Shown piece after piece: positions 11,730 to 36,660 of a DNA stretch of 64,000 nt. The DNA comes from Bryoerythrophyllum caledonicum (lineage: Eukaryota; Streptophyta; Bryopsida; Pottiales; Pottiaceae): NCBI GenBank assembly GCA_963971425.1, contig OZ020519.1:6464028-6528027 (forward strand). The letters run 5' to 3'. The notes under the pieces are model-generated. The model ran no database searches and had not been told where the DNA came from. It worked only from the letters and a program-made list of their open reading frames with translations. How positions within the stretch are numbered: position 1 is the first letter of the stretch; each line of letters opens with the position of its first letter. The position numbers were made by a program, and so were the translations under genes.

Positions 11730-11731
11730 TA

Positions 11732-12709
11732 CAACTTTTGAAAAAATTGGCCTTGTTCCTAGGAATTTTTTGTGAAGCTTGTATATATTTGCAACATATA
11801 ATTAACATTTTTAACAAAATTTCAAAGTAAAATAAACTCTTGTCTATGTTCATACTTTTGTGTTTCTTGTTTACATCTCATGAGCAAACCTAAACCACCA
11901 CCTAAGTTGGTGGTGAGATTCTAAGTGTAGCAAATAATGAAGTGATCAACAAACAAATAATTTAGTGCTTGAAGATTAGTGTTGCAAGTAAAATGATTTT
12001 TCCTACTGTAATTATAGGAAAGGCTATTGGGTTGATTTTGATCCAAAATCAACCAACCATAGATTTGCTAATAGGTTGTTTGACTTTGATTTTTTGTTTG
12101 TTTGCAAGGGTGGTTGTGATTACAACATTATAGTAGTTTAATCAATTTGAGAAATTTGAATAAGTTACACATAATGTTTTCATCACATAACTTGTATTTT
12201 GGTGCAATGAAACTACAAGTTTTATGTCAATTGAAATTTTGTGCACCAGAAGTCCACATTTATTTATGGCTTCTTGGTTGGTAAAGGGTTAAAGTCTTGT
12301 AGAGGATTGTACATGTACCATGTCTCAATAAATGAATCTTATTTAAACAAATGATTGCTACATTTTGAATCCTTTAATGTGACATTTATATGACTTTATG
12401 ATATGGCACTTTTTGAAATGACAGCCTACCCTTGGAACCTCAAAATAATACACAACATTTAGTGGTCACTTTCTGCATCTCTTTGTCAAAAGAATTCTAT
12501 TTTTTTTACAAAGTGATTCAAACACAATGGTAATCACCTAAGTATTACATGGGTATCACTTAGGCATTATATGGGTAGCACCTTGACATTATATGGGTAG
12601 CACCTTGACATTATATGGGTAGCACCTTGACATTACATGGGTGATCACCTAATCAAAATAATTATATTTTCCAAAATTTTGGACAAGTCTCCATTTTGAA
12701 TAAATTATG
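11732..12709. other. Intergenic, AT-rich, with a 22-bp minisatellite
   Basis: No gene recognised. At about 12531-12650 a unit close to CATTATATGGGTAGCACCTTGA (split here as CATTATATGGG and TAGCACCTTGA) repeats about five times; the outer units are diverged (GGGTATCACTTAGG, GGGTGATCACC). Confidence 0.7.
12531..12650 (+). repeat. 22-bp tandem repeat, about five units
   Basis: Core TATGGGTAGCACCTTGACAT is repeated three times almost exactly, with a degenerate unit on each side. Confidence 0.85.
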
Positions 12710-12711
12710 TA

Positions 12712-14037
12712 CAGTACCCTCACACAAGTATATGTACTTTTTTGATTTTGTAGGTTTCCACACTACATTGCTGCCAACTTTGGCACCCTCCTGAGGGCTG
12801 AAAAATTGTCAATTTACCATGAAATTTTTGGCACAAGATAACCTTTATGTTGACAGCATGTGTGCCAGATTTCAAGGCCAGAAGATGAATAAAAAAAAAG
12901 ATATTCAAAATCTACCAAGATGTGTAGTTGTGAGCCATTCACAGCTAACCAACTTTGACACCCTTCCAAGGATTGAAAGAATTTTTTTGGCCCATAGAAT
13001 TTTTAGCATGAGACCACCTCTATGTTTATAATAAGTGTGCCAGATTCCAAGGCCACATGATGAATAGAAAAAAGGATATTCAAAATTGTTTCTCATAGCT
13101 ACATATTTTGGTAGATTTTGAAGATGGTTCTTTGTATTCATCTTCTGGCCTTGAATTTTGGCACACATGTTATCAACATGAAGGTGATCTTGTGCCAAAA
13201 ATTTCATGGTCAATTAATAATTTTTCCGACCTAGGGAGGGTGCCAAAGTTGACATTAGTTAAATGGTTTCGTTGATTGTTTCTCACAACTACACATGTTG
13301 GTAGATTTAGATTTGTTTCTTTTCTTTTGTGGGTCTTTTGGGCTTGAAATTAAGCACATGTATAACCAACATAGATATGGTATTATTTCTAGAATATCAT
13401 GGGAAAAAATAAAAAATTGGATCCTTAGGAGGGTGTCAAAGTTGGCAGCACTGAAATGTTTCTCACAACTATACATGTTGGTAGATTTCAAAAATCTTTT
13501 GCTATGTAGATATTTTGGCCTTCAAATTTTGCACGAATGTGATAAAAATAGAGATAGTCGCATGACAAAAATTTCATGGGAAAATACCAAAAAATCCAAT
13601 CATTGGGAGTGTGTCAAAGTTGGCTAGGAGTTAAATAATTATCACAACTACACATGTTGCTAGCTTTTGATGTAGTTTTAATTGTGTGGATCATTTGGAC
13701 TTGAAATTTTCACACATGTAATCAACATAGAGGTCGTCTCATGCTAAAAATTACACGGGCAAAAAAAATTCTTTCAATCCTTGGAAGGGTGTCAAAGTTG
13801 GCAGCTGTGAAACTTTTCTTACAGCTACCCCATGTTGGTAAACCTTGGATATCTTTTTTGTATAAATCTTCTGGCCTTGAAATTTGGCACATGTTTTCAA
13901 CATGAAAGTGATCTTGTGCCAAAAATTTCATGGTAAACTGACAAATTTTTAGCCCTCAGGACGGTGCCAAAGTTGGCAGCAGTGTAGTGTGGAAACGTAC
14001 AGAAGCAAAAAGTACATATACTTGTGTGAGGGTACTG
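12712..14037. mobile_element. Non-autonomous Tc1-like element (1.33 kb)
   Basis: Ends CAGTACCCTCACACAAGTAT and its inverted match finishing GTGTGAGGGTACTG, flanked by TA at 12710-12711 and 14038-14039. No transposase remains. The body is entirely subrepeats of the type found in the arms of elements A and B (CCAACTTTG-CACCCTCC, ACATGTTGGTAGATTTTG, GGCCTTGAAATTTGGCAC): two on the + strand (12773, 12949) and at least five inverted (13235, 13433, 13609, 13787, 13960). Confidence 0.88.
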
Positions 14038-14039
14038 TA

Positions 14040-14690
14040 CAATACATACTAAGCTTTCTATGTTTTCTATTTGTGAATTTAGTGAATTGATCAAGTTGTT
14101 CCTTTATTTTCACTAAGCTCATGCTTTATTGGCCTTCAATTCTTTCATGATATTGATGCCAAAATCTACCTTAAATATTTATTGTTTTCCATGGTACCAT
14201 TCTATATTTGCCAATTAAGTAGGTTGTAGGTGAAAAGTTTTGGAAGTTGTTTATTAACTCTTTCTTCACTTTATTATGATACATGTGAGATACTTGGAGA
14301 TTAAATTAGTGTGGAAATCCAAAGGTATTGACCTCCATAAATCCAGCTAATGATTCCCCAATATCATCTTGAACTATAGTCTTCGTTAGTATGTAATTGG
14401 CTAATCAGAATTTGGAGATTAAACTAGAGGAGCAATCCAAAGGTATTGACCTCGAGAAAACCCATCTAAAGAATTCTCCAATTTCAAATTAAATACCAAT
14501 ATTCGATATATAACTGAGTAATTTATATGTAGAGATTATAGAAGGGAGATCCAAAGGTATTGATCCTTGGATAATCCACTTTACAAATTATTCATACTCT
14601 AGATTTATAAATTAAAAAACTAACTTATCTATTTAATTAATTAATTTCAAATTTTAGTACATAAAAATTTAATCTTCATAGGTTTTCCAT
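14040..14690. other. AT-rich spacer with three ~115-bp tandem units
   Basis: No gene seen. The only clear structure is the tandem repeat described separately at 14295-14600. Confidence 0.6.
14295..14600 (+). repeat. Three ~115-bp tandem units
   Basis: Units start near 14296, 14411 and 14530. Each begins with a GGAGATTA-like stretch and contains ATCCAAAGGTATTGA followed by CC and a short AATCCA or ACCCATC segment. Divergence between units is substantial. Confidence 0.75.
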
Positions 14691-15645: not shown

Positions 15646-18210
15646 AAAAAAATCAAATAAAAAATAAAATAAATTTAAAAATTATTAAAAAATTGTCGCC
15701 CATTAAGAAAAATTCTTGTTAAGGGGTTATTCAAATTGCCCATTTGGCACTCCAAACTTTTCCGTAAATTTGAATACAAAAATTCTTGCTTCCACTACAA
15801 TTTTACATAATTTTACAATTCTTGCTTCCACTACAATTTGAGTGAGGGGAAAAATGGCACCTTGGTACCAAAGTGCCCATTTAGCACTCCACACTTTTAT
15901 GTAATTTTGAACACTAAAATTCTTGCTTCCAATATAACTTTACATAATTTGAGTGAAGGGAAAAAAGGCACCTCGGTACCAAAGTGCCCATTTGGCACTC
16001 CAAAATTTTATGTAATTTTGAACACTAAAATTCTTGCTTCCACTATAATCTTCATCGTAGTGGAGCATTAGGCAAATGCAAAGCGTGGGTGAATTGCAAA
16101 CACTTGTATTATGTATACAGATTCTTGTGCAAGGCAAACCTGGAAGACGACAAGTAAATACATGGACCAAATCTTAGTTTAAATGAAGTATAGCTCCTAC
16201 TCCGCAATAGTAATCTCTAAGTTTTTCTTGGTTTGGTCATAGTAGTTATGGCAAGTTATTGCCTCTTTTATAGTTTAACTTTGAAACTACACAAAACTTT
16301 GGAGGACCAAAATGGCTCCTTGGTACCGAGGAACCCTTTTGGGCTTCACAAAAAACTTGTGAAGTTCAACGATTTTCACTTGTAGAAATAGTAGAATTTG
16401 TTGAGGAAAACAAATTTAAAACATGTTTTACCCGTTGTTGGGAACGGGAAAAAAAATCAAAAAAATTAGACAAAAGGGTCAAAGCACACTACGGTTGTAC
16501 GAATTTGTAGTCACGGCACAATTTCAGGGCCTGGTATAAGTTTGGACTCAATTTTAGACTAGATTTTTTTATAATTTGGAGAAATTTTTAGTAGGTATAG
16601 TCCTACATCTTGCATACATTGAAGAACTGAAATCAAAATAGTCATTGCATAAAATGAAACCCTCAAAATGAGTACAAACATAAAACGTTGGTATTGTTAC
16701 AGTTCAGGTTTCACATATTTGTACTCATTATGATGATTTGTAGTTATCATTTTTACATTTTAAATAGCTATATATGATCCTCTATTCTTTGGATACCACG
16801 CCTTGTTATTTATATAGATAAAATGATAGCCAATAAATAATAAATATAACAAATATGTTTTCTTTTGGGGATCCTAAACATGAGTATAAAGTCTTTTTTT
16901 CCCATTTTTTTTAAAGATTGGCGTTTAGGGACTATATGTCTAGGGCGGCCAACAATTGAATTTTGAAAAAAACAAATTCTTTCTCCTCATTTCTTGCATT
17001 GAAGATTATACTCCCTATTTTGCCATAGTTTTGTTTAAATTCTCAATGTGTGAATTGAAATTGGATGTCAATAGGTATGATAAATCCACCATGTACACGA
17101 TAGGAAAGATACCCATAAACCTGATTTTAATTTGGAGACTTTAAATATTGTACAATTTGTACAACGGCTAGGGGGTCGACCGTAGTGTGCGATCACTCAA
17201 AAAGAAAAAGAAATAAATAGGCCTAATAGGCTCTTTGGTACAGAAAAACCTCTTTTGACTTCTTTAGAATCTTGTAGTTTAGTGATTCATCTTCACTCTT
17301 GAAAGGTGTATTTTTTTATGCGGCATGAATTATGAAGCACTGTGAATTAACATAGTTTTTGTTTCCCATTAAATTTCATGTCACTCATAGAGAAATTTTC
17401 GTAAAACTAGATGAGATTTTGAATGGATGCCCTAAACTTCATTCATCTATAAACTCTATCCATCCATGAAATATATCATCCAAACTTATTCATCCATTTA
17501 ATGACGAGAAATAGTCAACTCCATATTAAAGTTTGGTTAGGTTTGTCCCTAAAATCCAACATTTATTTTCATGTGAAGAAATTTCGTAGCCCATCTGTAC
17601 GTGAAAAATCACAGAAGACATTTGAAAACCACGGTACTAGGTTGCAATTTTTTTTCTTTTTCTAGAAAATTCCAAATATCATTTATAGAAAATTCCTATA
17701 ACTAGAATATTTTTGTCCATTTTAATCCTCCCTCCTCACCGCTCACCGCTCACTGCTCGCATTCTAACGTCGTTGGTTTCCCCACTTGTAGTCACTACAA
17801 TCACTATTCCTTAGTCAACGATCCATTGGTGTGCTTGTAAGTTCCACACCATCTTTCCATTGAAAGAGCTTCCATTGTCGTTTCGACAATCTTTTGGCGT
17901 GGAGAGGTAGTCTATGGTCGGGAGGTCACAACTGCAACAAACACCCTATTGGCCATTGGAGTGACCATTGGTACAATAAGTGCGGATGTCCTTAGAGCAT
18001 CCGCAACGTCTCCACGGCCAATGGATAGGGTGAAGGAAGTTTGGTGTAGTGATTGAGGAGAGTTAGTCTAGCCGGCCCTCTTCACCGAGCGGGACTTGAG
18101 CTGATTTAGTATGTGAATGGTCTAGGAATGAATGAAAGCAATCTCTACACATGCAAATCGATCTCCGCCTTTTGTGCCGAACTCAGTTGACCTCTAATGA
18201 AGGGCCATGA

Positions 18211-18734
18211 AATCCCACAACATCTGATATTTTGGTTCAATGTTTTTTTTTGGCCACGTGCAAAGCTTTTCATCCAATATTGTGTATAGATGTAGTTTAA
18301 AAGCGTCCTCAATACATGTACTTTATTCCAAGCCATGTACTTAATTTGGACCTAGATAAGGGGACTGGTGAGGACGGACGGAGTTGCTCCGAACAACCTT
18401 CGTTCGTTTGTCCGTCCATCCTCGCGTCCATTTGTCTACCCGTTCCTCTGTCGTCCTGTCCGTCCCTCATCTTCCTTCGTCAATTCTTAAGGGCTTCCAC
18501 ACCGAGAAGCGTGGGGTTCACACACCAACAAAATAAAAGTTGTAGTAAAAGTAAACTTCCACTATTAAGTCAACAACTTTATGTTTGAAAGAAAAATCTT
18601 CTGCTATTTTCTCTTATGAATATAAAAGCTCATAGATCACATATGAGTACCATATTACTAAGAGCACGATATATTTCATACACATACATTCAAACATCTC
18701 ATTATCAATCACACAAATGAATTTGTAGATTGAT
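18211..18734. other. Spacer with a fragment of repeat Y
   Basis: 18215-18355 resembles 19120-19255 (AAAGCTTTTCATCCAATATT, CTCAATACATGTACTTTATT), so it is a stray piece of repeat Y. 18357-18500 is a C/T-rich stretch with repeated GTCCGTCC/CGTTCGT motifs. No gene seen. Confidence 0.6.
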
Positions 18735-18759
18735 AAAAATCGGCTTTGTACGCTACACG

Positions 18760-19089
18760 ATGGGTTCTAAGTCGGATGATTCATGCATGACAATGGGTTC
18801 TTCGAGTTGCAAGCCTTCTAATGCAATCACAGCAACCGAAGAAGTCAAAAATCCTCCCAAATCTCCGGCATCAAGTGCAAGTTCAAATGAAAAGACACCT
18901 CCCATGCAATTCAAAGTTTATAAACGCAAATCATCATGTTGTGGGAATCGCGTGTCCGGAAAAGGGTTGGGAGGCCATAAAACGGAGTGTCTATTGGCAG
19001 AGAAAACGAGTATAATATGGCATTTTCAGTTGAAGCCAGACTGTGTGAAGTTTGATTGGCATGAAACCGTGCTCCCCGGAAATCTTTAG
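18760..19089 (+). CDS. Hypothetical 109-residue protein, copy 1
   Basis: Not recognised. ATG at 18760 begins MGSKSDDSCMTMG; the reading frame is also open 10 codons upstream without a better ATG. The N-terminal half is Ser/Lys/Pro-rich. The centre has Cys-Cys followed by SGKGLGGHKTEC, which faintly resembles the GLGGH/ALGGH core of plant C2H2 zinc fingers, but the usual Cys/His spacing is not met. The second copy (32499-32828) differs at about two residues, and its DNA is equally similar, so conservation says nothing about function. It may be a fragment of a transposon-carried gene. Confidence 0.35.
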   Translation: MGSKSDDSCMTMGSSSCKPSNAITATEEVKNPPKSPASSASSNEKTPPMQFKVYKRKSSCCGNRVSGKGLGGHKTECLLAEKTSIIWHFQLKPDCVKFDWHETVLPGNL

Positions 19090-19464
19090 AATTTGAGGCA
19101 TATAAGTCTATAAGCATTTATATGTGATGTTTTGGTTCATTGTTTATTCTTTTGGGCCACTTTCAAAGCTTTTCATCCAATATTGAGGATGTAGTTTCCT
19201 CAATACATGTACTTTATTCCAAGCCATGTACTTAATTTGGACCTAGATATAGTTGTATATATAGAATCAGACAGATCTATTTGACTTAGTTTGGGCAATG
19301 GTAGACAAATATAAAGCATTATAGTGTGCGTTCCATATTTTGATCTTGATACACTATATTTTGAAACCTTTTTTTACAAAGAGTTTATGTAAACAAGGAA
19401 GATTATCTTTTGATGCATTTAAGCTTTACTAGAAGAACAAAGCTTATAAAGTCAAACTTTGACT

Positions 19465-19477
19465 TCCATTTTGACTA
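19465..19477. repeat. 13-bp target duplication at the LINE 3' side
   Basis: TCCATTTTGACTA; identical to 31688-31700 and present once in the empty copy at 33204-33216. Confidence 0.9.
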
Positions 19478-19620
19478 AGAAGAAGAAGAATGCCGGTCTC
19501 CAAGGGAGCCGGCGTGAATAAAGTGTTTGTTCGTTCCACTACTAAGACCATGCCCACCGGACAAGGAATTAGCAAGCTGGAACTACTTCCCCCTCTCGAG
19601 GGTAGACACTATGTAACAAG
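19478..19620 (-). other. LINE 3' tail: hairpin plus CTT repeat, shared with a SINE
   Basis: On the element strand the tail has GAGAGGGGGAAGTAGTTCCA, then TTCACGCCGGCTCCCTTGGA, then GACCGGCATTCTTCTTCTTC. CCGGCTCCCTTGGAGACCGG can fold as a stem with a one-base bulge just before the terminal CTT repeats. The same arrangement ends the SINE at 36233-36580. In stringent-type LINEs such a 3' hairpin is what the reverse transcriptase recognises. Confidence 0.85.
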
Positions 19621-19668
19621 TAACCACAAAACAAAAAACAATAGAAATGAAATGAAGAGAAGGTAATT

Positions 19669-22600
19669 TTATGGGGGGTCTTGAATATCAGGGAGGGCTT
19701 GGTTGTTTTCAATTTTTCGTTTGTGTAGAAGGATGGACATAGCATGTTGTATGGCAATGATGTTAATATTCTTGAAAGTGTTAGTAATTGTATTAATAGG
19801 AATTTTGAAGATATCTTCTAGGGCTTTTATAGAAGGGATAAAGGTGGTGGCGCGAGTGCCGGCCGTGATTACCATAAGGGGGTCCGCTTTCCAGCCGAGG
19901 GCAATGATGTCATCTATAAGGGGTTGGTATTTATTGATTTTGTTTTCGATTGTTACAGGGGAGAATCTGTCATTACAATATGTAAATTCGATGAATTGAA
20001 TGGTGTAGTTTTGGTTTATGTGGTCGGGTGGGGGGTCGTTGTATGGAAGGCCTCTAACGCATAGTATGTCTGGTTTGAGTCGAGCATTGCAATGACATCG
20101 TTGTGTTTCACATGTACATGGGAGTAGCCATGGTGGGACCGTGTTTTCTTGTGGATTGTTGTTAAAGGTGCCAGCATTCATGAGGATGAAACATCTCAAT
20201 TTGCTATGGGAGGTGATTAATTTACGGAGTTCCCATACGGCTTTGTTATGTCTTTTGACAATTAGAGAGTGTATGTGGTGGTTATGACATTTAAGTAAAA
20301 CATGTAGCCATGTGTCGGGGTCCGTGGATGTGCATATTGGACATGTTATGGATGGGAATCTTTCTATTCCAAAGAAGAGTTGTTTTCGAGCATTTCCCAT
20401 GTATTGTCCGGTACGGAATTTAATAAGACATGTTATTTGTGAGTCGGTGATGATTGGATTTTTCCAAAAATTTGTAGAGAGTTCATTGTCTATGTTGTTG
20501 TTAGTCCACTTTTCTATGTTAGGGAAGTTATCTGAGATTGTGTCAAGGTTATTATATAGGTCTTGTTTTTGAAGGTATTTGTTCAAAAATCTTACCGGGC
20601 CTTTATCGGGGGTGTCTTCTTTGGAGGGCCAATCTTCTTTTTGGAAGTAGTATGGGGTGGCGTGGGCATGTTCATGTGGATCTTTGGCATTTTTGTGTGA
20701 TTTTTCCCGGCCCTCTTTTGCAAGTTTATCCGCTTGTTCGTTACCATCGATATCGGAGTGGGCTCGAACTTTGTGGATGGTTGTGATTTGTCTTCGTTTC
20801 AGTATCATTTGGACCATAGATTTTAGTATGATTTGGTCGGGGTGGCTGTTATGGAGGGTAGGGTGTGTTATTTCGGTGTTAAGTAAGTATAGTGCGTTAA
20901 TGCAGTCTGTGAAAATGTGTGCTGGTTCATTATTGTATTTTGTTGTGATAATTTCTAGTGTTTTGTGGATGGCCATGAGTTCTGCTCTGAGGATGTTTTG
21001 CAGTCCATGCAGTCTTTTGGCTAATTTGATTTCTTTCGTGGGATTATATATTCCATAACCGGCTTTCTCTCTACGCCAATTACCCGGGCTGATATATTCT
21101 GGTGGTTTGAAGGAGCCATCGGTATAGTAGCTGTATGCGGGGTCAAATTTTGGTGCCGTGGTAGTTTGGTAGTCTGGGAGGGGTGGAAGTGGTAAAATGT
21201 GATCTAATGTGTTGTTATTGTAGTTTAGTTTTGACCATTTTTTGCTTCTATTGACTAATGTTTGTATAGGTGTTGGTGGGGCTATCTTTGTATGTAGCCG
21301 GTTTATGTTAAGAGTTTTTGCTATGGAGGTGAGTTCGGCAAGTTGATCTAGGGTGCCAAGGGTTTGGTTTTGGTGGTGAACGCATATTATCTGTAATGTA
21401 GATGGTTCAATCCTGGGCTTTTTTAGCTCGGGTGGGATCGTAGGTTCTTCGTAGTAAATTGAGTCTGCTTCAAATATTGCAAGGATGTGGGAGTCTGCAA
21501 ATGGGCTTGACTGGGGATTAAAGTTTTTGTACCAATTTTTGATTGGCGTGATAATGAGTGTAGATGTGTGTTGTGGGTCGTTTTTGGCAGCGAGGCGGGC
21601 CCAATGTAGTGCTTGTTGAGTTTCTTCTTCATTGTGGGGGTGAGCTATACCATTACCAGTCCATTTATAGTCAAAGGCTTTTCCCAAGGAGCCAAATATT
21701 CTATCTCTTTCAAAAGGTGAGTAGAATTTTTTTAATTTGGTGGAACATGTGACGGGGGAAGAGAAATATGATTGTTCGATGTTAAAGGATGAGATTAATG
21801 AGTCTAGAATAGATGTGGGTATTGTGTATTGTGCATTTTTGAGGGGGTTATTTTTCGGAATGCGGTATTTATATCTTTGGTATAGCCAAATTAATTCAGT
21901 TTCAAATGGTTGGGTAGTTGGTTCAATGTTTGTAGGGGTTTTTAGTTTCATGTTGTATTGATTCCATAGCCATTGGAGTCTGGTAGTGGGGATAGTGTGT
22001 AAATGTCGGCCATTTGCTTCATACAGATGGGCTTGATTGTTCTCTATTTTGATTGTGTTCGAGGTTGTGGTAATATCGTTTTCGGGGTTACATTCCGTTG
22101 TATAGATGTTAAGGAGTGGGATGGTTATAGGTGGAGTTACGGATCTTGAGTCTTGTAATTGTTCTTGGGGGTGGTGTGCTTGAATGATTTCCGAGTAGAA
22201 TTTATCTTTGATTTTTTGATAGTATTGTTTTAGTTTTTCGGTGTTGAATGCGGAGGTATTACTGTCGTGTCTTGGAAAAAGGTTTCTTTGAGGAAGCCAT
22301 TTGTTGAATGTATTGTTGTTGTGTTGCCATTGACAGAGGTATTTTGTATAGGTATTTTGTATTCTATTGGCATCTTTTTGTTGTATGTGTTCGTGTCATA
22401 TGATGTTATTAATAGGGTATGTGGTGGGATTTTTGGTGATGTATGTTGGGGGGTGGGGGTGGCATGGGTATGAGGGGTTGGGAGGATGGATTGGTGGTAG
22501 GGTAGTTCTTGGGAGGATGTTGTTGTTGATGGTGATGAATGGGTCTTGGAGTATGTAGGAGTGTGGGTGTATATTACAAGAGGTATCGCATGTAGTTGGG

Positions 22601-25600
22601 CATGTTGGATGGCAAAAAAGTTGTTTGGCAACATTTAGGGCACTCTTTATTAGTTTGGATGGGGTGAAGTGGAAGGTTTTGAAGTCCTCGTTGCTCATGA
22701 TGTGTGTGCCGTTTGGTAGAGTGATTTGTTTTAGTTCAAAAATGTTTTTTGAGAGGAGTTTTTGTAAGAGTTTTTGGGAGAGTTGGGCGTTAAGTGTGTT
22801 ATGGTTGCATGTTTCTTGACGCCATACTACTTCTAAGGATGTTTGATCCAAGAGGAAATTTGGGAGAGTACTTTTAAGGTGAACTTTAGCTACGTGTTTT
22901 AATAAGGAAAGTGTACGAGTTATAGGTGATCTTATACAGTCCGTTTTTTTAATCCTAGGTATATTCTGGGCACCACCATATTGAGCAAGAACATATTGTG
23001 TTAGTCCATTGTATATTTTTCCGAGCCTACCTTTGTCATTTAGAGCATTTTGTAATTGTTCCCCGATACATCTTAGATAGGCGTTTTTTAGGGAGAAAGC
23101 TTCAAGTCCAAATAGGTTATGGGGGAGTTGGGTTATTGCATTTGACATGCATTTTGGCATACCGCAAATGGATTTTTGTATGGCTATAATCTTTTGATCA
23201 AGTTTTTTAATGGCTGGCATAGAGTATGGCACGGCATAGAAGCTATATGCTACACCTGGGCGTATTACGGTGTCAACCATTTTAATTTTTTTTTGTTTCA
23301 TAGTAGCCGGACATGTTGTTAATTCTTTGCATTGTTTAATGAGTTTTGTGGTTGTAGTGTGAATTTGGATTTTCCATTTCAGAGAGGGAACCAGATTTGT
23401 GCCTAAGTAAACATATGCTTCGTTTTGGTGTAGTATGGGGATTGGTTGACCATGGTAGTTGATGTTAGAAGCTTGCATTAGGGCTTTAAATGTGGTTGGA
23501 TTCAATTTGAATTTTTTTGGACATCCTGTAGCCGCGCATTTTGGGACGCCTACGTCCATACCAGCCCATTTACAGTATCTGTCGATTTTATCAATTTGTG
23601 TTTGCAATGATTTTATTTTGTTACTTATAGTAGCAAGGTCATCGGCGTAGGCGGCGGAGTTTATGGTGATTTGTGATGTACCAAAGGTGTATCCATTATT
23701 GCCTCGCTCTAGCCATCAAAGTAGTGGTTCTAAAAATATAATGAATAGATATGGACTAAGGGTGTCTTCTTGTATTGTTCCTCTATGAATGGGGATAGGT
23801 TTAGTTTGACCAAAGTGCTCACCGATGTAGTAACTAGATGATTGGGAATAGATATTTCCAACTAGTGCAGTTGCATCTTTTGGGTATCCAATATCAGTCA
23901 TTATTGCTAATAATCGGGTGTGGTCTATAGAGCCAAAGGCGTTCTTGAAGTCAACATATAGAACATACATGTCTTGATTTGTGAATCGTGCGTCTTCTAG
24001 TGCGGCTATTATGGTTTGTATTTGTCTAGAGGTGCTTCTCTCTGCTATAAATCCTTCTTGACTATCGTGCAAAATTTTAAATTTTTCACCATATGAAGAT
24101 AATATTGAGGTAAGTGTACTGGTGAAGAGTTTATATATTGTATTGGCTAATGCTATTGGTCTATGGTTTGGTAATATTGAGGGATCTCCTTTTTTGTATA
24201 GTAAAATTGTTGCACTTGTTTTCCATGAGCCTGGTATTTGTTTTTGTTTATAGCAATGAGAGAAAAATAGAAATAGTAATTTATTAAATCTTGGGGGCAT
24301 GTTTTTTAGTATTGAGTTTGGTATACGGTCTGGCCCTGGGGCTTTATTATTTCCGAGGTTGTGGAGACATGTGTCATATATAGCTCTGTTGAAGTATGTG
24401 TGTAATGGAGTTTCAAGTTCACCTCGTTTGTCTAAGGTAAATCCATCTAGGTCATGCCATGGGTATTGGCGTACTGCACATGTGCATGTGGTGAGATGTT
24501 GTGGTTGGTAGTTGCATGTTGGTACCGTGGGTCTATTATTTTTTGTCTGTTGATTGAATATTTCGTTTGCAATATCTTCCGGGCTAGTTAGAATGTTATT
24601 ATATTGGTCAGTGATACAATCTAGTGGTGGAGATTCTAGTTTTTTTAAAACTTTTCTGTTTATTTTTTTAGGGCTAGTTTCGTATAGTTGTCTGTATTTT
24701 GAGATGGCTTTTTAAATGTTATCTTTGGAGTATTTTGTAGTTACTTTCCGGGCTTGTATATTGGCGTTTTTTGCGATTAGTGCAATGTCTTTAATCCATG
24801 TGTCATGGGGTAGGTCCGGGGGGGGTGGGCCAGGGATTTGGGTGTGGTGCAGGGTTAGTAATTCGGACAATATGGGATGATTACGCCATTGTGGATTATT
24901 CTTTACAATTGTAATAGTTTTTTGTATTATATGGTATGTGGTTATGTGTTGTTTCCATATTTTGGACAGTTTGCGGGGTAGATAACCGCCTTATAGTGAT
25001 GATCTGTTTGTCATTTGTGGTATTGGTTGGGCATTACAAGTTTGTTCCAATGTATTGGAGATATTGTTTATAAGTATATCTAAGGTGTGGCACATTTCGT
25101 GCCATTGTGTTGGTGAGAGTTGGTAGTTATGTTCGAGGGTGTTTATGAGAGAGTCAATTTGTACGGAGTTTTTTTCAAAGAACTTTGTGTTGAATTTTTC
25201 TAAGTTATCTTTTGGGATGGGGTTGAGTATTCGGATAGTATCTTTGTTTGTGGTTATCGGGGTGTGACCAATTAGTATGTTGTTTGGGATGTGAAGTTGT
25301 ATAGGCGAGTGATCCGAGTTGAGAGTAGTATCTTTGTTTGTTGTAGAGGTATATTGTGTAGTGTTATTTGTATTTATGTAAAAGCCGTCTATTAGGCTCC
25401 AATCACTATAGTTGTATCCGCCTTGTCTGGAGTATTGTGTATCAATATTTATGTATATAAAGTTTAAGTTTTCTGTGAAGTGGCGCCATTGGTAGTCTGT
25501 GGTTTGAGGAAGGGTGGTGTGGTTTCCATTTTGTCGACCAATTAGAGCTATGTCTCTGTTGAAGTCTCCACATAACAAATAGGTATGATTAGGGTTTTGG

Positions 25601-26716
25601 TTTAATTGATATGTAATGGTGTTTTGTATGCCTATAATAAATCTAGTATCTTCGGGATGGGAGGGCATATACATGTGAAAGATTAACCATGCTTGTAGTG
25701 GTTGATTAGTAATTTTAATTATTTGTAGGTAGGGAGATATGTGCATTGGGGTAGAGATTTTTTTGATGTTACCCAGAAAAGCATATTTCTTGTGTATTAG
25801 TGTAAGGAGGCCACCGCGGCCTGGTGTGTATGGTCTACGTTGTTGGATGCACCTTGTTAGTGCATGTGTGTTGTTAAAAATAAGTTTGTAGTCTTGAAAT
25901 ATGTTTTGTATGTATTTTGTAGATTTTGTGGCCGATATTTTTGTTTCTTGTATAGCTATGATGGCCGGTGGCGTGTTTGTATGTGTGACCAAGGTATGTA
26001 GACTAGGGAGAGCGGTGTTTAGAGATGAAGCATTCCATGTGATTATGTTTGTGTTTCCATAGTTTGAACTAATATTTTGGTTTTGTGGAGGAAGGTTATT
26101 TTGGTTTTGTGGAGGAAGGTAAGAGGGTGGGGGGGGTGGATGGGTGTATTCTAGTATGGGGTTGAGGCATTTTAGTGACTCATTAATAAGATTGTTAGGG
26201 AGGTAAGGGAATTTTTTTTTTATTGTGTTGTTTGTGGGGGGTATAGTTTGACTGTGCCAAGAAGTCGTATAATTCTTTATGTATTGAATTTTTATGATTT
26301 ATGATACCTAGGTTATCTTCAAGAAATTTTGTATAAGGGTGTGTGGTGTGTATATGTCTTTCGGGTGGGTTTTGTAAGTTTGATAGGGTTTGTAATAATG
26401 TGTTAGTCCATATAATTATACTCGGGTTTTGTAGATTTAGAAGACGGTTACATTCATCTATGTTTGGGTGGGTGGTAATTACTAGGGCGTAGAAAATATG
26501 TGTTGATGGATGTGTATTTTTTTGTTGTATATATTGGGCAATATTTGGATGTGTTGTGTTGTGTAATTGATGTAGTATATGTGTGGTTTTTAAAAGGGGT
26601 GAAAATGTCTGAGCAATATGTTTGTATTCCGGTTGTAGTTTTATGGTATTTGGTATGAAGTACATTTTGGCATTTTTCTTATGTGTTGTGGGATGTCTTT
26701 TTAGTACATTGGGCAT
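19669..26716 (-). pseudogene. LINE ORF2: APE endonuclease, RT, RNase H, CCHC, restriction-like endonuclease
   Basis: About 2,350 codons from ATG 26716 (MPNVLKRHPTTHKK). The N-terminal ~165 residues are of unknown type. APE-type endonuclease: IITWNASSLN (about 26055), AIQETKISA (about 25945), LLCGDFNRD (about 25565), SDHSPI (about 25310). RT: NNKAPGPDRIP (about 24335), YVDFKNAFGSIDH (about 23940), YADD at 23638-23649. RNase H: YYTDGS (21113-21130), AELMAI, FTDC, RAHSDIDGNEQAD (about 20745). CCHC knuckle C-X2-C-X9-H-X4-C (about 20290-20345). Restriction-like endonuclease: KRHN (about 20250), LKPDIL (about 20075), FIEFTY (about 19985), KINKYQ (about 19930). Lesions: a likely one-base insertion in an A10 run (26212-26221) and stops at 24991-24993, 24712-24714, 23716-23718 and 22396-22398. 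From 26.2 kb to the end everything else is in a single frame. Confidence 0.92.
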
Positions 26717-26879
26717 GGGTCCCGGATTGGTTTCTATATCTCCACTTAGTAGTAATAGGATTTTATAGTATGATGGTTTAGTGAGTTGTTTTTGGTTTAT
26801 TGGTTTGTTTATATATTCTAGTTGTTTTCTTAATTTTTTTGTTTTTGTTTATGTATGTGTGTATGTTTTTGTTCATGGA

Positions 26880-27300
26880 GTTTTTTTTGTCTCTGTTGTT
26901 TTCTCGTGATTCTAAGTGTTATCCTTGGATGCGTATTTTTTATGGTGCTTGTGTGGTCTTGTTTATAATTTTTTAGGTGAGTTTTTGTATGTGTTTTTAC
27001 GGCTTTTTGTAAGTAGGTTTTTGTTTGCGAGTGTGGCTGTGTAAGTGAGTGTTTGTGTATGTGTGTATATATTATGTGTGTTTTCGAGCTTATGTGTGTG
27101 TATTTGGTTGTGTGGGTGTTTTTTTTTATATGTATGTTTATGCGTATTTGTGGTTTTTTTTTGTGTGTTTATATGTGTATGCGAGTGTGCGGGCGTTTGT
27201 GTGTTTGTCTTAATGTGTTTATGTGTGTGTATGTATGTGATTGTGTATGCAATTATTTTGATTTTTTGAGGTAAGTTTGTGTTGGTGATAGTTTTTTTGT
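26880..27300 (+). repeat. GT-rich (CA-rich on element strand) tract between LINE ORFs
   Basis: Imperfect GTGTGTATGT runs. The tract gives long but low-complexity open frames on both strands (Thr/His-rich on minus, Cys/Val-rich on plus) that I do not regard as genes. Confidence 0.8.
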
Positions 27301-27978
27301 TTGTGTTTTTGGGAGGTGTGTGTAAGAGGTGACGTGCAATGTGGTAGTTGTTTTTATTATTTGGAGGTGTGTGTGGGAGTAGGGTTAGTTTGTAGTGTGT
27401 GGGTGTATTGGGTGTGTTTGTGGTGTAGAGATGTGGTAGGGGTGTATGAGTATTGAGTGTGTATATTTCATATGTGCTTTTCCAAGAGATATTCATACCG
27501 TAATGGTATATGCAATGACAATATTTATAGATATGTGGGGTGAAAACCCAAAACCAGTACATGTATCTACCATGTGGTCTCCAAGTCATGCATTTAATTG
27601 TAGGTATGTTGTAGCAAAAGTAGAGAGTATGTCTAGAGTAGGAGGTGACTAGTGAGGGTGGGGTAGAGACTGTGATAAGGCTAGAGTATACTATAACTAT
27701 ATTAGTGAAATGATATATCACTAGTAAGGGTAAAGAGAAAGATTGGAGACATTGAAAGTTTATATCTAGAAGTAGTGGTATAGGGGGTACTAATGTAATA
27801 AGTGTGAGAGTACTAACTAGTATATTGTAGTAAGGGAGAGAGAGCATACTAGCGGAGATAGTAGTTTCAATGAATAGAGGGGTGTTCGAAGAGAATTGGA
27901 GAGTATGGAGGGGAGGGGTGCTAACCTTGTTCATCCATATAGTGCCATATTGGTGATATCTTCTGCTGTAGTCCCTGG

Positions 27979-29622
27979 TCAATCCACGTTTGAGTGGTCT
28001 ACTAAGGCTGGGATAATTGGTGGCCGTGATCCTGTAATTTGTTGCATAGCCATCAGTGCGGAGGTCATCAGCTGGTCAACGTTTGAGAGCTTCGCCTGTA
28101 GCTCACTGGTGCAGTTATCGGTGTAGGCCTTTGTATCCTTGATGATGTCTTCTCTGAGGGTGGAGAGCTCCTGCCGTAGTCTCTTGTTACCTGCATCTAT
28201 AATGGAGGTCATTTCTGACCTTGTAATGCTTGCAGGAGCTGAGGTAGCTTGTAGGGACGCCACGGTGTTTACGAGGGCTTTGTTGATGTCATTAAAGCCC
28301 CACTTCTCCAACAATTCGGTTGTAGGTGGGTCATCACCTTCGAGGCTACGGCGGTGGGGAGAAATCTCCACATGATGTCGCCCTATCGTGAACGTCTTGT
28401 GTAGAAATTGGCGGTAGATGATGGGGTTAGGGAATTGCACATTGGCACTGCCATTATGCATTCCTCTCTGCTGCCTATGGAACCATAGGGAGATGACATT
28501 CTTGGCCTCAAAGGTTTGATGAATAGCTGCCGTGGTTTCTACCACGCTCATAAGGATGGGAAGATGGGAAAGGGTGACTGTCAGTGTGTCCTTCTTGGCT
28601 CTATCAGTTGGGGAGAGGCCTCCAGAACCACTAGCACGTGCTGGTATCACCTCGTGGTGTGTGGTAATTTGGTGGAGCTCAAATTTCTTTGCCTGTTGAG
28701 GGGTTGGGGCGACTATAAAGGCGTGTGAGTCTTCCTGTACCTTCTGCACATCCGTGATCTCGAACTCCAAGTTTCTTGAGAAATTATTTGTCACCACATC
28801 TTGGAAGAGGGTGTGGGCGCACACACCTTTGAGGGATTCACTCTTGATTCTTACAGATAAGTTTTTCCGTCCTACTGCATGGAAAGTTTTGCATACTTTC
28901 CCTAAGGAGGCCTATCCTATGGGGTCCAGGTGTAGAATGAAGTATCTAGTGCCGCGAAGGAGGGCAATAGCATCTACCTCTGGCCTAAGGAGATGTAATT
29001 TGATTGTGCCTGACCATACACCCTTTTGTCCCTCGCTTTTGACCCCTTTGCATAGAACGGCCATGGGGTCCATTAGGTTGGTGCCTAATGGTATTTTCAT
29101 GTGTTCGAGCCTAGCTAGGGCTAGCCTCTTCACATCATCATGGTACATAGGGTGTGGTGGCAATTCGAAGTGAATTGCCACATGGAAATCATAGGAGAGT
29201 CCATTGATAGGGTGTGTAGGGATATCAAAGGGTACTTGTGTGAGGTTGTAGTGTTGGCCCTCGATGTTGTCGTTGCACACTGAAGAATATAGAAGTTGTG
29301 GGATCCTAGGGTAGGCCACCACCGCGCCGAGGACCTCCTCTGCTTCTTCCTTTGGTACTCCACGAGTGATCATGTCTCTAACGCTCTCTCCACTGAATAG
29401 GGGCTCCTGTCCCGCATCTATGGCAAGCTTTTCCATAGTGGAGAAGCCCAACCAAAAATGGAATGAAGAGAGGTTAGGGATGGAGACCTGGATGGGGGTG
29501 GGATAATTACCTCTAGCTTTTTTGGATGGTGTTGGACCTCCATTTGTCATTGAGACTGATGCTTCAGTCTCCGAGTTCTTCATAACTCCTGGGTGGGGAT
29601 GTTCGGTGTCCATGGCGTCCAT
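27979..29622 (-). pseudogene. LINE ORF1 (nucleic-acid binding/gag-like) with one in-frame stop
   Basis: From ATG 29622 (MDAMDTEHPHPG) about 547 codons to the stop at 27979-27981, interrupted by a single TAG at 28912-28914; both parts are in one frame. No family match by eye. A segment reading TLTVTLSHLPILM to HHVEISPHRR has a beta-alpha-beta-beta-alpha-beta look like an RRM, as in many LINE ORF1 proteins, followed by an amphipathic helical stretch (NKRLRQELSTLREDIIKD) that could be a coiled coil. The frame is open upstream to about 29787 but without an ATG. RNA chaperone/RNP assembly is the inferred role. Confidence 0.75.
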
Positions 29623-29679
29623 TATGGGTGGGGTCGTTGGTTTGGAGGCTACCTGGTGAATGGCTCTGGGCCTGTAGTA

Positions 29680-30560
29680 GTTGGGCTTGGGGGAGTCACG
29701 GGTTGGGGTAGGTCGATAATGGTGTTGAAGGTCACTAGTTGGGCTTGGGGAGGATCTATAGGGTTGTGGGAGGTCGCTGCCTACCACTGGGGGGTCGTTG
29801 TCCTCTGGTAGGAGGTCGCAGTTCGTTTGAGGGGGTCTCAGTTCGCCTAGAGGAGGTCGTTAATCGCCTTGGAGGGTCGCTAGTCCTCCTGGAGGAGGTC
29901 GCAAGGCGTTTGTGGGGGTCGCTATCCTCCTGCTGGGAGGTCGTTGTCCACTACCGGAAGGTCTCTATCGTCCTGTCGGGAGGTCGCTGGAGGGTGCCGT
30001 GTTACTCCGCCTGTCCACTGCCGGGAGGTCGCTGGAGGGTGCCGCTATACTCTGCCTCCTCTCTGAGATCCTGGGTCACTGTCCTGAGTCCATGTGATCG
30101 ATGTCCGCCTTCTGCGTGTGTTTGTCGCTGTTTGCGTTCGAGCGCTGTCTGCCTGCTTTCTGAGGTCATGTGTCGCTGTCCTCAGTCCCTGTGAGCATTG
30201 TCCGCCTTCTACGTGTGTTTGCCGCTGCTTGTGTTTGAGCGCTGTCTTGTTGCTGTCTTCATGCTTGCGTTCTTCTGCTTTGTCTTCCTACTGACGTACT
30301 CCTGCTTGCGTCCTCTTGTTGTTGTCCTCTTGTTTGCGTCCACCTACTTGCGTCTTCCTGTTTGGTGTCCACCTGGTCGCTGTCCTCCTGCTTGTGTTCG
30401 TCGTTGTCCTGTTCTTCCGTTTGTATCGGTCGTTTGTGTTTGCCGCTGTCCTTGTAACGGCCGCTGTCTTGTTCTGCTGTTCTTCCTACTTGTAATGGCC
30501 TCTGCTGGTGTTGCCGTTGTTTAGAGTCTTTGTCTAAGGTCCGTGTCGAGAGTCTATGTC
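29680..30560 (-). repeat. LINE 5' leader minisatellites
   Basis: On the + strand GGAGGTCGCT-type units (29700-30060) grade into units built on CTGTCCTC, CCGCCTTCTGCGTG and GTGTTTGCCGCTG (30060-30520). GC content is clearly above the rest of the LINE. Tandem units in a LINE leader often hold the internal promoter; here that is inference only. Confidence 0.65.
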
Positions 30561-31687
30561 AAGTATGATCCTCTGACACTGGGTCTGGGTGATTCTGAGT
30601 TGGTGTATGATGTGAGCCTGAGTCGTTGTGTATGTTTAATCCTAAATCGCTGATGATGGGTATAGACGTTGGGGTCTCCTCGTGCTGTGAGTCCAGGTCT
30701 TCTAAGTCTAAGGTCCTGTTGGTCTCTGATTAGGTCTTGCTCTTGCGTCACTAAGAACTATGTTTCTACAGGATGGGGAGACTAAATGGAGGTGCAATGC
30801 TGCTCCGCACCCGGCCTCTGATTGGAAGATGCTGGTTCAAGTTTGAAGGATTGACTTGTGCACGTGTAGCGTCTTCGGTGCCTACAAGATTCTAGGAAAA
30901 AAATGCGCAGCGCTTCCGCACTCTACTGTAAAGGTGGAGATTTCTATATGAGTGCGCAGGGTTATTGTGGTTTAGGGTTAGGTTTTGGTTAGGTTGTGAT
31001 TATCACTGCTGGTGCTCTATGTGACATGTATCAAGATAAAGATTGTAATACAAAGTGTGTAGGCTAGTGGTGTGAGCTGCAGATCTGATGCATTAATCAA
31101 AAACTTACAGATGTTGATGTTCTTCTTGTTGCTGATATATATGGTGTATACGCTTTCTGCTGCTAATGGTATTGTTCTCCAAGGTTGTCGGTGCGGCTGC
31201 CTAAGCTCCGGGTTGCCAATGTTGTAGATCTGAGGCTGTGGCGAGTTGTTGCTGTAATGTAGTCGCGTTGGTCTGGTCTTTCTTGCTATGTTGTACAGAT
31301 GGATAACTAGTTAGGGGAGATGTGTCGACTATCAGAGAGACCTGCAGATCTGGTATCCAGCCTTCAGATCTAGAGCAGATCTGAATGGTACAAGTCAAAG
31401 GTGGATCTATGTGCCAACACTTGCTCCCACGCTTCTCAGAAAACGCACTCCATAAATCCAACACTCACACTTTCACTCCTCAAACTCTATATCTGATGCT
31501 TGTGAGCTCTCTCCAATGTGGTCTACTTACTAGGCCTCTCTTACTTCTCAGATCTAAGATGTGTGGGGAGCTCTCACCAAGATCAGCCACCTCTTCGTGC
31601 CCACAACCTTGAGTCTGGAGCTAAGTCTCACCTCCCCTAACCAGAAATTTCGGAGCTCACTCTGTCTTCATCGCTTCAGTCGTGTTG
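30561..31687 (-). other. Remaining LINE 5' leader
   Basis: No ORF of note. Contains AGATCTG-rich stretches (31200-31560). It is assigned to the LINE only because the 13-bp target duplication starts at 31688. Confidence 0.6.
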
Positions 31688-31700
31688 TCCATTTTGACTA
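31688..31700. repeat. 13-bp target duplication at the LINE 5' side
   Basis: TCCATTTTGACTA, followed by the same downstream sequence (CTATTACTAAAATTGATT) that follows the single copy at 33204-33216. Confidence 0.9.
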
Positions 31701-32473
31701 CTATTACTAAAATTGATTAATCTGTAATAAATGCATGTTTTGTACCTATTACCATGGGATAGTATTTCATACGACTTTGAAAGAAAAGGATGATTTTCAT
31801 CCACCACATTAGTCTCCATAGAAAACTAGGGGTATGCAGAAACAACTCGTTTCTTAAATGTATTTTTCTAGTTTTTATGAATATTCTTAAATTTTCCCTG
31901 TACAAAATCAAAATATCTCTACTTTGTCGCAAATATGTAATGGAAGAAATCCAACAGACATAAACCCTCTAGCTTTCTAAAAGATTAATAGGATAATTTT
32001 AGTTCCAATATATTAAGCTGTGAAAATGAACAAACAAAAACGCTCCTTCGACCATTTTGAATCCATGGCAATAGGTCTGGCGTTTATATCTTTTGTTACT
32101 ATGATAAATGCAGCAACGGATATCTTTAATATTGGAGTGAGACCCTCCATGTGGAGGGAGAAGATTGCAGATTGGAGGAAAAGTTTTGAGGGTGGAGGCC
32201 ACAATGTAGTTTTGGGCGGGTGTTTAGGGACATGACCTCTACAACCTTCTCGTTCCATTTGCTATAGATTAGGCTTCCACCCTTAGAAATCCTTTTACTT
32301 TTCTTTTGCTTTAGAAACCCTTTTACTTTAGGATTAGGTTATATATAGGAGTGGAGACTAATGAGTCCTTTAGTCTCGACAACGCATCTCTTGGAGCACT
32401 CATTCACCTCTCTTCGTGTTGTTTTGTATACTCATCTTGTTAATCAATCACACAAGTGGGTTTTTAGTTTGGT

Positions 32474-33740
32474 AAAAATCGGCTTTGTACGCTACACGAT
32501 GGGTTCTAAGTCGGATGATTCATGCATGACAATGGGTTCTTCGAGTTGCAAGCCTTCTAATGCAATCACGGCAACCGAAGAAGTCAAAAATCCTCCCAAA
32601 TCTCCGGCATCAAGTGCAAGTTCAAATGAAAAGACACCTTCCATGCAATTCAAAGTTTATAAATGCAAATCATCATGTTGTGGGAATCGCGTGTCCGGAA
32701 AAGGGTTGGGAGGCCATAAAACGGAGTGTCTATTGGCAGAGAAAACGAGTATAATATGGCATTTTCAGTTGAAGCCAGACTGTGTGAAGTTTGATTGGCA
32801 TGAAACCGTGCTCCCCGGAAATCTTTAGAATTTGAGGCATATAAGTCTATAAGCATTTATATGTGATGTTTTGGTTCATTGTTTATTCTTTTGGGCCACT
32901 TTCAAAGCTTTTCATCCAATATTGAGGATGTAGTTTCCTCAATACATGTACTTTATTCCAAGCCATGTACTTAATTTGGACCTAGATATAGTTGTATATA
33001 TAGAATCAGACAGATCTATTTGACTTAGTTTGGGCAATGGTAGACAAATATAAAGCATTATAGTGTGCGTTCCATATTTTGATCTTGATACACTATATTT
33101 TGAAACCTTTTTTTACAAAGAGTTTATGTAAACAAGGAAGATTATCTTTTGATGCATTTAAGCTTTACTAGAAGAACAAAGCTTATAAAGTCAAACTTTG
33201 ACTTCCATTTTGACTACTATTACTAAAATTGATTAATCTGTAATAAATGCATGTTTTGTACCTATTACCATGGGATAGTATTTCATACGACTTTGAAAGA
33301 AAAGGATGATTTTCATCCACCACATTAGTCTCCATAGAAAACTAGAGGTATGCAGAAACAACTCGTTTCTTAAATGTATTTTTCTAGTTTTTATGATTAT
33401 TCTTAAATTTTCCCTGTACAAAATCAAAATATCTCTACTTTGTCGCAAATATGTAATGGAAGAAATCCAACAGACATAAACCCTCTAGTTTTCTAAAAGA
33501 TTAATAGGATAATTTTAGTTCCAATATATTAAGCTGTGAAAATGAACAAACAAAAATGCTCCTTCGACCATTTTGAATCCACGGCAATAGGTCTGGCGTT
33601 TATATCTTTTGTTACTATGATAAATGCAGCAACGGATATCTTTGATACTGAAGTGAGACCCTTGGGGTGGAGGGTGGGGATTTGAGGAAAAGTTTCGAAG
33701 ATGGAGGCCACAATGTAGTTTTGGGCGGGTGGTTAGGGAC
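32474..33740 (+). repeat. Repeat Y, copy 2 (uninterrupted)
   Basis: Near-identical to 18735-19477 joined to 31688-32246. It shows the pre-insertion state of the LINE target. Confidence 0.88.
32499..32828 (+). CDS. Hypothetical 109-residue protein, copy 2
   Basis: Duplicate of 18760-19089; about two substitutions (Pro to Ser and Arg to Cys), both in the middle. The open frame extends upstream here to 32361, giving a possible 155-codon version starting MSPLVSTTHLLEH, but that leader is not shared with copy 1. Confidence 0.35.
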   Translation: MGSKSDDSCMTMGSSSCKPSNAITATEEVKNPPKSPASSASSNEKTPSMQFKVYKCKSSCCGNRVSGKGLGGHKTECLLAEKTSIIWHFQLKPDCVKFDWHETVLPGNL

Positions 33741-33744
33741 ATGT

Positions 33745-34400
33745 GGTGGTATTTATGTATGTATAGGTTATTTATGAATTTTGATTTTGAGGAGATTTTG
33801 AGATATTTACCACTTAGTACATGATTTATTTAATAAGTTTACATAGTTTTAATCATTTAATTTTAATCAAGTTTTGATTTTAGTTTCATTAGCTTTTTAA
33901 TTTTTATTCATCTTTTTGTATATTGGACTTAATCAATCAAAACTCTCTTAAACAAGTATGTTTCCCCACTTGTAGTCACTACAATCACTATTCATTAGTC
34001 AACGATCTATTGGTGTGCCTGTAAGTTCCACACCATCTTCCCATTGAAAATGCTTCCATTGTCGTTCCGGCAATCTTTTGGCCTGGAGAGGAAGTCTATG
34101 GTCGGGAGGTCACAACTGCAACAAACACCCTATTGGCCATTGGAGTGACCATTGGTACAACAAGTGCGGATGTCCTTAGAGCATCCGCAACGTCTCCACG
34201 GCCAATGGACAGGGTGAAGGAAGTTTGGTGTAGAGATTGAGGAGAGTTAGTCTAGCCATCCTGGCCCTCTTCACCGAGCGAAACTTGAGGTGATTTAGTA
34301 TGTGAATGGTCTAGGAACAAATGAAAGCGTTCGTTACACATGCAGATCAATCTCCGCCTTTTGTGCCAAACTCAATTGACCTCTAGTGAAGGGTCATGTT
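33745..34400 (+). repeat. Repeat X, copy 2 (empty site for the 2.86-kb element)
   Basis: Matches 14690-14919 joined to 17776-18210; GTTTCCCCAC is present once at 33960-33969. No gene seen. Confidence 0.85.
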
Positions 34401-34449
34401 ATCCCACCACATGTGAAAAGATCAAAAAATCAACTATTTATGAGTTTAA

Positions 34450-36075: not shown

Positions 36076-36660
36076 GGGCTGTGACTAAGGTTGGATAACC
36101 TATCACCACCATTTCCGAAATTTTAGGAAAGTCAGTTTATAATTGGGTCTCAGTTTATAATTGGTTCACAGCTCTCGGTTTTTAGTCTCTTGTGCTCACA
36201 GTGATGGATGCTTAGACAAGTGGTCATTAGCAGAAGAAGAACTCCAGTCTCCAAAGGAGACCGGCGTGAATAAGTGTTTCTTCATTCTCTTCACTAAGCA
36301 TATGGCCACAGGACATAGGCTAGTGTAATAGAACTACTCCCCCCTCTCAAGGGTAAACACTTTTCTACACTAAGTGCTTCCCTACACTAATTGCCTTAGA
36401 AACAACCGACATGTCATCTCCCCCAAGGGCTTTGTGGGTCCCCATACAACAAGGCCTTGGGACCCCCACCATAATTGGGTGGACTATGGTGGTAGGCACC
36501 ACGCCGGCAATACGACTTGAACTCACAACCACCTCACTGGTGTGCCATGACCAAAACCACTACACCAAGGCCATGGTGCTTGGTCATTAGCACAACTTAC
36601 TGTGGAAGTAGAGAGTTTTGTATGTCAAGGAATGGTCACGGCTTACTATCCACTTAAAAA
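36076..36660 (+). repeat. Repeat C, copy 1 (carries the SINE)
   Basis: 36076-36232 and 36581-36660 match 63721-64000 (GGTTGGATAACCTATCACCA, CTCTCGGTTTTTAGTCTCTT, TTGTATGTC-AGGAATGG). Copy 2 lacks the SINE and has extra sequence near 63755-63810. Confidence 0.85.
36233..36580 (-). mobile_element. tRNA-derived SINE (348 bp) with LINE-like 3' tail
   Basis: Flanked by a 12-bp duplication TGGTCATTAGCA (36221-36232 and 36581-36592), single at 63943-63954. On the minus strand it starts with a tRNA-like head: A box in TTGGTGTAGTGG (about 36556-36567) and B box GGTTGTGAGTTCAAGTCGT (36512-36530), spaced as in a tRNA. A unique middle follows. The last ~120 bp (36233-36355) match the 3' end of the LINE at 19478-19620, including a 9-bp hairpin (CCGGTCTCC-TTT-GGAGACTGG) and a terminal TTCTTC tail. 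Confidence 0.9.

Follow-up and report, generated by a model that had tools for sequence, protein, structure and literature searches.

A probable Dualen/RandI-type retrotransposon, full length and decayed, in the moss Bryoerythrophyllum caledonicum

Does a moss carry a long interspersed element (LINE) that encodes two nucleases and, if so, what else does such an element encode? The question is raised by a 64,000-nucleotide stretch of the Bryoerythrophyllum caledonicum genome (GenBank assembly GCA_963971425.1, contig OZ020519.1, positions 6,464,028–6,528,027 of the forward strand), which we refer to as the window. An earlier reading from the letters and open reading frames (ORFs), here called the sequence-only reading, had proposed that a second LINE ORF (ORF2) on the minus strand combines an apurinic/apyrimidinic-type endonuclease (APE) and a restriction-like endonuclease (RLE) with a reverse transcriptase (RT) and RNase H, the pairing of the two nucleases being what defines Dualen/RandI. 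We conclude, with a probability of roughly 85%, that the window holds a full-length, decayed Dualen/RandI-type retrotransposon of the class that lacks long terminal repeats. The sequence-only reading missed a PCIF1-like domain, a 2A motif, the true ends of the element and the fact that this copy is decayed. Newly added here are a host among the mosses, the precise element, its PCIF1-like domain, a 2A motif in the Dualen family and a short interspersed element (SINE) as partner.

Dualen encodes both APE and RLE (passages of PMC4640811 and PMC3636483) and has been taken, in a passage of the former, as evidence of APE replacing RLE in LINE history. This mainly algal family is recorded from Edaphochlamys and from two species of Chlamydomonas, C. 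incerta and C. schloesseri (PMC8226300); a repeat label places it in cryptophytes as well (PMC12747079). The suggestion that a plant copy would extend the distribution beyond Chlamydomonas holds for the host, now sharpened to a moss, but the spread was already wider in print. No report of Dualen/RandI in a moss, bryophyte, Sphagnum or liverwort is among the open-literature matches listed, most subscription papers and Repbase lying beyond their reach. The moss copy would extend the family to land plants and, being deep-branching in the sampled set with both active sites apparently kept, would make the replacement scenario and the assignment of the two cuts testable outside algae.

Insertion, coding frame and relatives

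The ends of the element were read by hand from aligned flank strings. The 13-bp TCCATTTTGACTA stands on either side of 19478–31687 and occurs singly, at the join, in a second copy of the flanking sequence: self-comparison finds 18695–19477 and 31688–32234 adjacent there, at 32433–33743, the two flanks being 98.5% and 95.2% identical to the unoccupied copy and the joined flanks 96.4% identical over 1,328 columns. Because the duplication lies on both sides and the second copy retains the empty site, we read the LINE as a single full insertion of 12,210 bp, longer than the 19669–26716 previously assigned to it. The repeat that it interrupts, with a short ORF (SDDSCMTMGSSSCKPSN...), is itself duplicated, at 17776–19477 and 31688–34416. 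In this the element differs from R2-type elements: its insertion lies within a dispersed repeat and is flanked by a 13-bp duplication.

A single minus-strand frame, from 26298 to 19669, holds every motif named in the sequence-only reading: IQETK, GDFNRD and SDHSPI of the APE; NKAPGPD, FKNAFGSIDH and YADD of the RT; YYTDGS, FTDC and DGNEQAD of the RNase H; and, C-terminally, C-x2-C-x9-H-x4-C, KRHN, KPDIL, FIEFTY and KINKYQ. What went unmentioned is that this frame is not open, being interrupted by four stops (TAA at 24993 and 24714, TGA at 23718 and 22398), and the supposed right end at 26716 is the methionine of another frame (ORF 26848–26198), directly after the 2A motif, whereas the APE frame opens at 26298. 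An alternative genetic code is ruled out: the stops include both TAA and TGA, and P0002, a near relative, is unbroken over 1,289 residues. The domains run in the order 2A (in the other frame), APE, RT, PCIF1-like, RNase H, knuckle and RLE (Table 1).

Profile hidden Markov model (HMM) searches bore out the proposed APE, RT and RNase H, with Exo_endo_phos at 9.8e-7, RVT_1 at 9.7e-15 and RNase_H at 1.4e-13, all above cut-off; Exo_endo_phos_2 (4.4e-5) and the part of the RT past its in-frame TGA (5.7e-5) fall below. In an alignment with six relatives, the N, E, D..N, D and D-H positions of the APE, which we take to be the usual active-site positions, are all occupied in the moss copy. The Pfam scan reported no RLE family in the element. 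A fold search with the predicted C-terminal structure ranked R2 first by a wide margin, the alignment of the RLE to R2Tg is collinear and low-scoring, and the R-H, P-D and E of the RLE, together with the knuckle, are invariant in all 11 aligned sequences. The C-terminus is thus, by its predicted structure, an R2-type PD-(D/E)XK fold behind a zinc knuckle, as the sequence-only reading had supposed.

The moss RT scores 105–111 bits against the PDB chains of turtle and finch R2, 59–63 against Bombyx R2, 62–63 against chains named L1 and 64 against a chain named RNA-directed DNA polymerase. In an RT tree of 27 rows, it forms one clade with 19 relatives (support 100/99), in keeping with the placement expected of a dual-nuclease element, and is the deepest row within that clade, with weak support (75/56). 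The remaining rows (one L1, two R2 and four other LINEs) are on long branches, which drew a program warning; the two R2 rows lie apart from the clade, as does the single, also long-branched, L1 row. APE, RT and knuckle/RLE matches occur in one protein in 17 of the 19 relatives, the exceptions being P0202, which begins within the RT, and P0214. The element thus resembles R2 in its C-terminal knuckle and fold, and its RT is closer by score to two vertebrate R2s than to L1, but it carries APE and RNase H, its RT lies outside the two R2 rows, and against Bombyx R2 the RT scores no higher than against L1.

The relatives came from two protein searches. Residues 1380–2209 of P0001, the read-through ORF2, returned 4 proteins: P0002 (58% over 100%), P0003 and two of Haematococcus lacustris. 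The second query, P0005 of H. lacustris, returned 104, mostly from Haematococcus and so not independent. Using HMMs built partly from the moss sequence, and gene models of Haematococcus that are possibly fused or cut, a census of 107 proteins (P0001–P0005 and P0126–P0227, the last four being other LINEs) gave matches to APE in 73, RT in 89, knuckle/RLE in 74 (extending from the knuckle past PD..E in 43) and the PCIF1-like domain in 80. APE, RT and knuckle/RLE coincide in 47; the PCIF1-like domain is present as well in 46, invariably in the order APE, RT, PCIF1-like, RLE. The RLE match is long in 29 of these 46, including 11 from outside Haematococcus, the window element among them. Long single relatives (P0201, P0205 and P0206) lie on contigs of 10–22 kb. 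Identity between the moss element and P0002 is 71% in the RT thumb, 68% in RNase H, 65% in knuckle plus RLE and 58% in the PCIF1-like core, with 32, 42 and 54% in three linkers and 50% in the C-terminal tail. Scans of IMG/VR found no relative of the element. A PHD-finger-like stretch occurs in P0004 and P0005 (weak Pfam PHD) and in P0202, P0212 and P0213 (precomputed PF00628); Pfam reported none in the moss element.

As no named Chlamydomonas Dualen protein was among the relatives found by the protein searches, we assign the element to Dualen by its architecture and its relatives, many of which are from H. lacustris. In common with Dualen/RandI, the element has APE, RLE, RT and RNase H, ends in a 3' repeat tail other than poly-A and shares its 3' end with a SINE. 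It differs in its moss host, in its weakly supported position as deepest row of the sampled clade, in an RLE with EFT and a perhaps displaced lysine where algal-type proteins have E-x-K, and in a (CTT)n tail as against the (ATT)n and (CTATTT)n listed for Chlamydomonas RandI/SINEX (in a passage of PMC3747384); the Dualen/RandI literature passages compared make no mention of a 2A motif or PCIF1-like domain.

PCIF1-like domain, 2A-like motif and SINE partner

The domain between RT and RNase H matches Pfam PCIF1_WW (PF12237) at 7e-12 (45.7 bits against a cut-off of 31.1) and is predicted to share the methyltransferase-domain fold of PCIF1/CAPAM. The likeness is partial: the model, whose N-terminus is of low confidence, aligns to human PCIF1 residues 417–668 only, leaving the WW and helical domains unmatched, HPHN stands in place of the PCIF1 motif NPPF, and the domain is embedded in a retrotransposon polyprotein. 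We consider it probably an RNA- or nucleotide-binding module without the catalytic motif. The open-literature matches listed, which leave most subscription papers beyond reach, hold no report of a PCIF1 domain in any retrotransposon or transposon. With 80 of the 107 collected proteins carrying it, a dead-looking cap-methyltransferase fold inside a LINE would point to an unnamed step of the element's cycle.

Upstream of the APE and one frame off it, GDIETNPGP follows the hydrophobic YYKILLLLS and ends at 26717. The pattern D[VI]ExNPGP occurs once in the six frames of the window and not at all in first-order Markov simulations (300 of window length and 1,500 of element length), in which NPGP alone arose 190 and 237 times. 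In other proteins, the 2A motif was found 30 times, in 29 of 106 (28 Haematococcus); where the protein also matches APE (28 cases), the motif always precedes that match, by 351–824 residues. P0206 (3,473 residues) has two such motifs, GDIETNPGP and GDVHPNPGP, and among its precomputed Pfam domains PF02902, presumably a C48 peptidase. For the stretch after the 2A motif, the best 12 matches among the collected proteins all cover the 2A region. The APE-type LINEs L1Tc and sea urchin elements carry 2A peptides (passages of PMC4981915); the moss element shares the D[V/I]ExNPGP motif with them but, like the algal-type 2A elements, also bears an RLE. StopGo sequences are described as almost absent from plant viruses and rare in cellular genes (passages of PMC12846837), and a natural one in a plant-genome element is unusual.

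Further upstream lies a probable ORF1, which by position and strand probably belongs to the LINE and is not nested; no Pfam family exceeds the cut-off there, and its best match among the collected proteins has E 0.42.

At the other end, the 3' untranslated region (UTR) folds at −54.4 kcal/mol (z −2.78; 2 of 200 shuffles equally good), and the last 133 bases of the LINE are 77% identical, over 136 columns, to the last part of a SINE on the same strand. The SINE is flanked by TGCTAATGACCA, the same 12 bases standing once, at 63943–63954, in an unoccupied duplicate; target duplications in the two insertions are thus 12–13 bp. Its tRNA-like head has an A-box-like GGTGTAGTGG and a B-box-like stretch seen by eye, where the script's B-box pattern matched none. 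ARAGORN found no tRNA in the SINE and Rfam no match in the LINE up to E 0.5; a sub-threshold Rfam snoRNA match over the SINE end (20.7 versus 45 bits) was taken as chance. RandI and SINEX pairs with a shared 3' end are described from Chlamydomonas (in a passage of PMC3747384). Given the LINE-like 3' end of the SINE, the moss machinery most likely mobilised RNAs in trans, and the moss SINE is a likely partner so mobilised.

Competing readings and a proposed cycle

Several points weigh against the Dualen/RandI reading and its parts. Four stops and a frame change interrupt this copy, with no methionine ahead of the 2A motif in that motif's frame, so expression is not readable from it. By sequence alone, the RLE scores poorly against R2 (2.1 and −0.8 bits), and the match of the PCIF1-like domain to solved chains is marginal (0.04); the models of the two are of middling confidence (predicted local distance difference test scores of 68.6 and 62.1). 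ORF1 could be nested, with a GC content of 51% against 36–41%. Two insertions give two target sites, insufficient for any target preference, and the division of labour between APE and RLE is argued by analogy. An ordinary APE-type plant LINE of the L1 kind, with an RNase H, a knuckle that is no nuclease and RLE motifs arising by chance, would suit the weak RLE score, the silence of Pfam on RLE and the equal standing of Bombyx R2 and L1, and plant L1 may bear RNase H (a passage of PMC4640811); we reject it as very improbable on the R2-type predicted fold and the invariant knuckle and nuclease motifs, to which the scores of the two vertebrate R2s and the position of the RT outside L1 and R2 add. 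Two nucleases of separate origin at one locus might also reflect an accident in this genome that placed an R2-like element inside an APE LINE or fused the two. Here a single RT, a single insertion with a single duplication and a domain order common to all 46 four-domain proteins, which include long single relatives from other sources, make that reading extremely improbable, and we reject it too.

Within the Dualen/RandI reading, one nuclease only may cut: the APE would nick while the RLE fold binds the target or a branched intermediate, or the two roles would be exchanged. In the moss element and P0002, EFT stands at the site of E-x-K in aligned algal-type proteins, so that the usual lysine position is changed, which favours a single cutter. 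However, a lysine stands 16 residues past the RLE glutamate in a K-x-x-K-Y context resembling that of R2Tg, and the lysine may therefore have moved; the APE positions are filled, and knuckle and RLE are conserved nearly as well as RNase H. We regard a single cutter as possible but unlikely. It is less probable still that the PCIF1-like domain, by way of an unusual catalytic loop, works as an adenosine methyltransferase. The fold is clear and FSSPV..F.SPF..D..FGS is retained (compare FASPL..Y.S.F..D..FGS in PCIF1), but PCIF1 activity requires NPPF (PMC10544176), [DNS]PP[FYW] occurs in none of the 78 proteins whose match spans that position, and no match to the WW and helical domains was found.

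On the two-nuclease reading, ribosome skipping at the 2A motif would separate a short hydrophobic leader from the polyprotein; the protein would choose its templates by their 3' ends, binding the hairpin and (CTT)n tail there on its own RNA and on that of the SINE; one nuclease would nick the target and the RT prime there, in target-primed reverse transcription; a cut of the opposite strand 12–13 bases away would produce the target duplications; RNase H would remove the RNA template; and the PCIF1-like domain would serve as the binding module suggested above. In R2, the RLE achieves second-strand cleavage by cutting a four-way junction (PMC6895275), and on that analogy the RLE may have retained the second cut while the APE took the first nick; this is our simplest guess, and the reverse is possible. 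More tentatively, and on balance doubtfully, the Dualen lineage may be older and more elaborate than so far reported, reaching land plants and having as ancestral components of its polyprotein a dead cap-methyltransferase fold that binds element RNA, perhaps at its 5' end, and a StopGo peptide, the APE cutting first and the RLE second.

Features of the window and host locus

Table 1. Features of the element, its SINE partner and their target sites (window coordinates)
Feature	Position	Strand	Basis
Whole LINE insertion, probable Dualen/RandI type, 12,210 bp	19478..31687	−	13-bp duplication and empty site
Target-site duplication, 5' side of element	31688..31700		String comparison of flanks
Target-site duplication, 3' side of element	19465..19477		String comparison of flanks
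LINE empty site, same 13 bases once in unoccupied duplicate	33204..33216		Self-comparison
Tandem repeats in 5' part, 97-bp unit x2 and shorter units	29810..30394	−	Repeat scan
Probable ORF1, single frame split into two adjoining pieces by an in-frame stop (28912–28914)	27979..29859	−	Position and strand
ORF holding 2A motif, frame other than APE–RLE	26198..26848	−	ORF list
StopGo/2A-like peptide YYKILLLLSGDIETNPGP	26717..26770	−	Motif search, simulations, relatives
APE domain, limits approximate	25222..26073	−	Pfam and alignment
RT, residues 623–976 of P0001, YADD intact, one in-frame TGA inside	23371..24432	−	Pfam, PDB scores, tree
PCIF1/CAPAM-like methyltransferase-fold domain (predicted)	21307..22065	−	Pfam PF12237, Foldseek and VIA, motif census
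RNase H domain	20707..21135	−	Pfam RNase_H
CCHC knuckle C-x2-C-x9-H-x4-C	20287..20343	−	C80, C83, H93, C98 invariant in 11 aligned sequences
R2-type RLE domain (RHN, KPD, E of IEFT, K-x-x-K-Y), predicted, limits approximate	19708..20253	−	Predicted fold and alignment
3' UTR, terminal hairpin and (CTT)n tail	19478..19668	−	RNA folding, tail read
SINE, 348 bp, sharing LINE 3' end	36233..36580 (36221–36592 with flanks)	−	Alignment and duplication

About 14 kb from the LINE lies an exon of a TGD2 (Mce/MlaD) gene (4534–5412, plus strand) that is moss-like: among the best 120 of 623 matches, the closest named ones are mosses (Ceratodon, 76% over 97%, and Physcomitrium, 72% over 95% of the query), with Sphagnum, liverworts and vascular plants lower by score. 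That an algal contig was taken for moss is unlikely, given this exon and a LINE that lies inside a repeat duplicated in the same window.

Two transposase ORFs, at 60788–61801 (minus strand) and 9463–10221 (plus strand), are about 82% identical to each other in DNA and are presumably Tc1/mariner-like. Inverted copies at 59846–60797 and 62604–63555 are 99.8% identical over 952 bases, with diverged kin at 8149–8744, 11155–11733 and 12708–14041.

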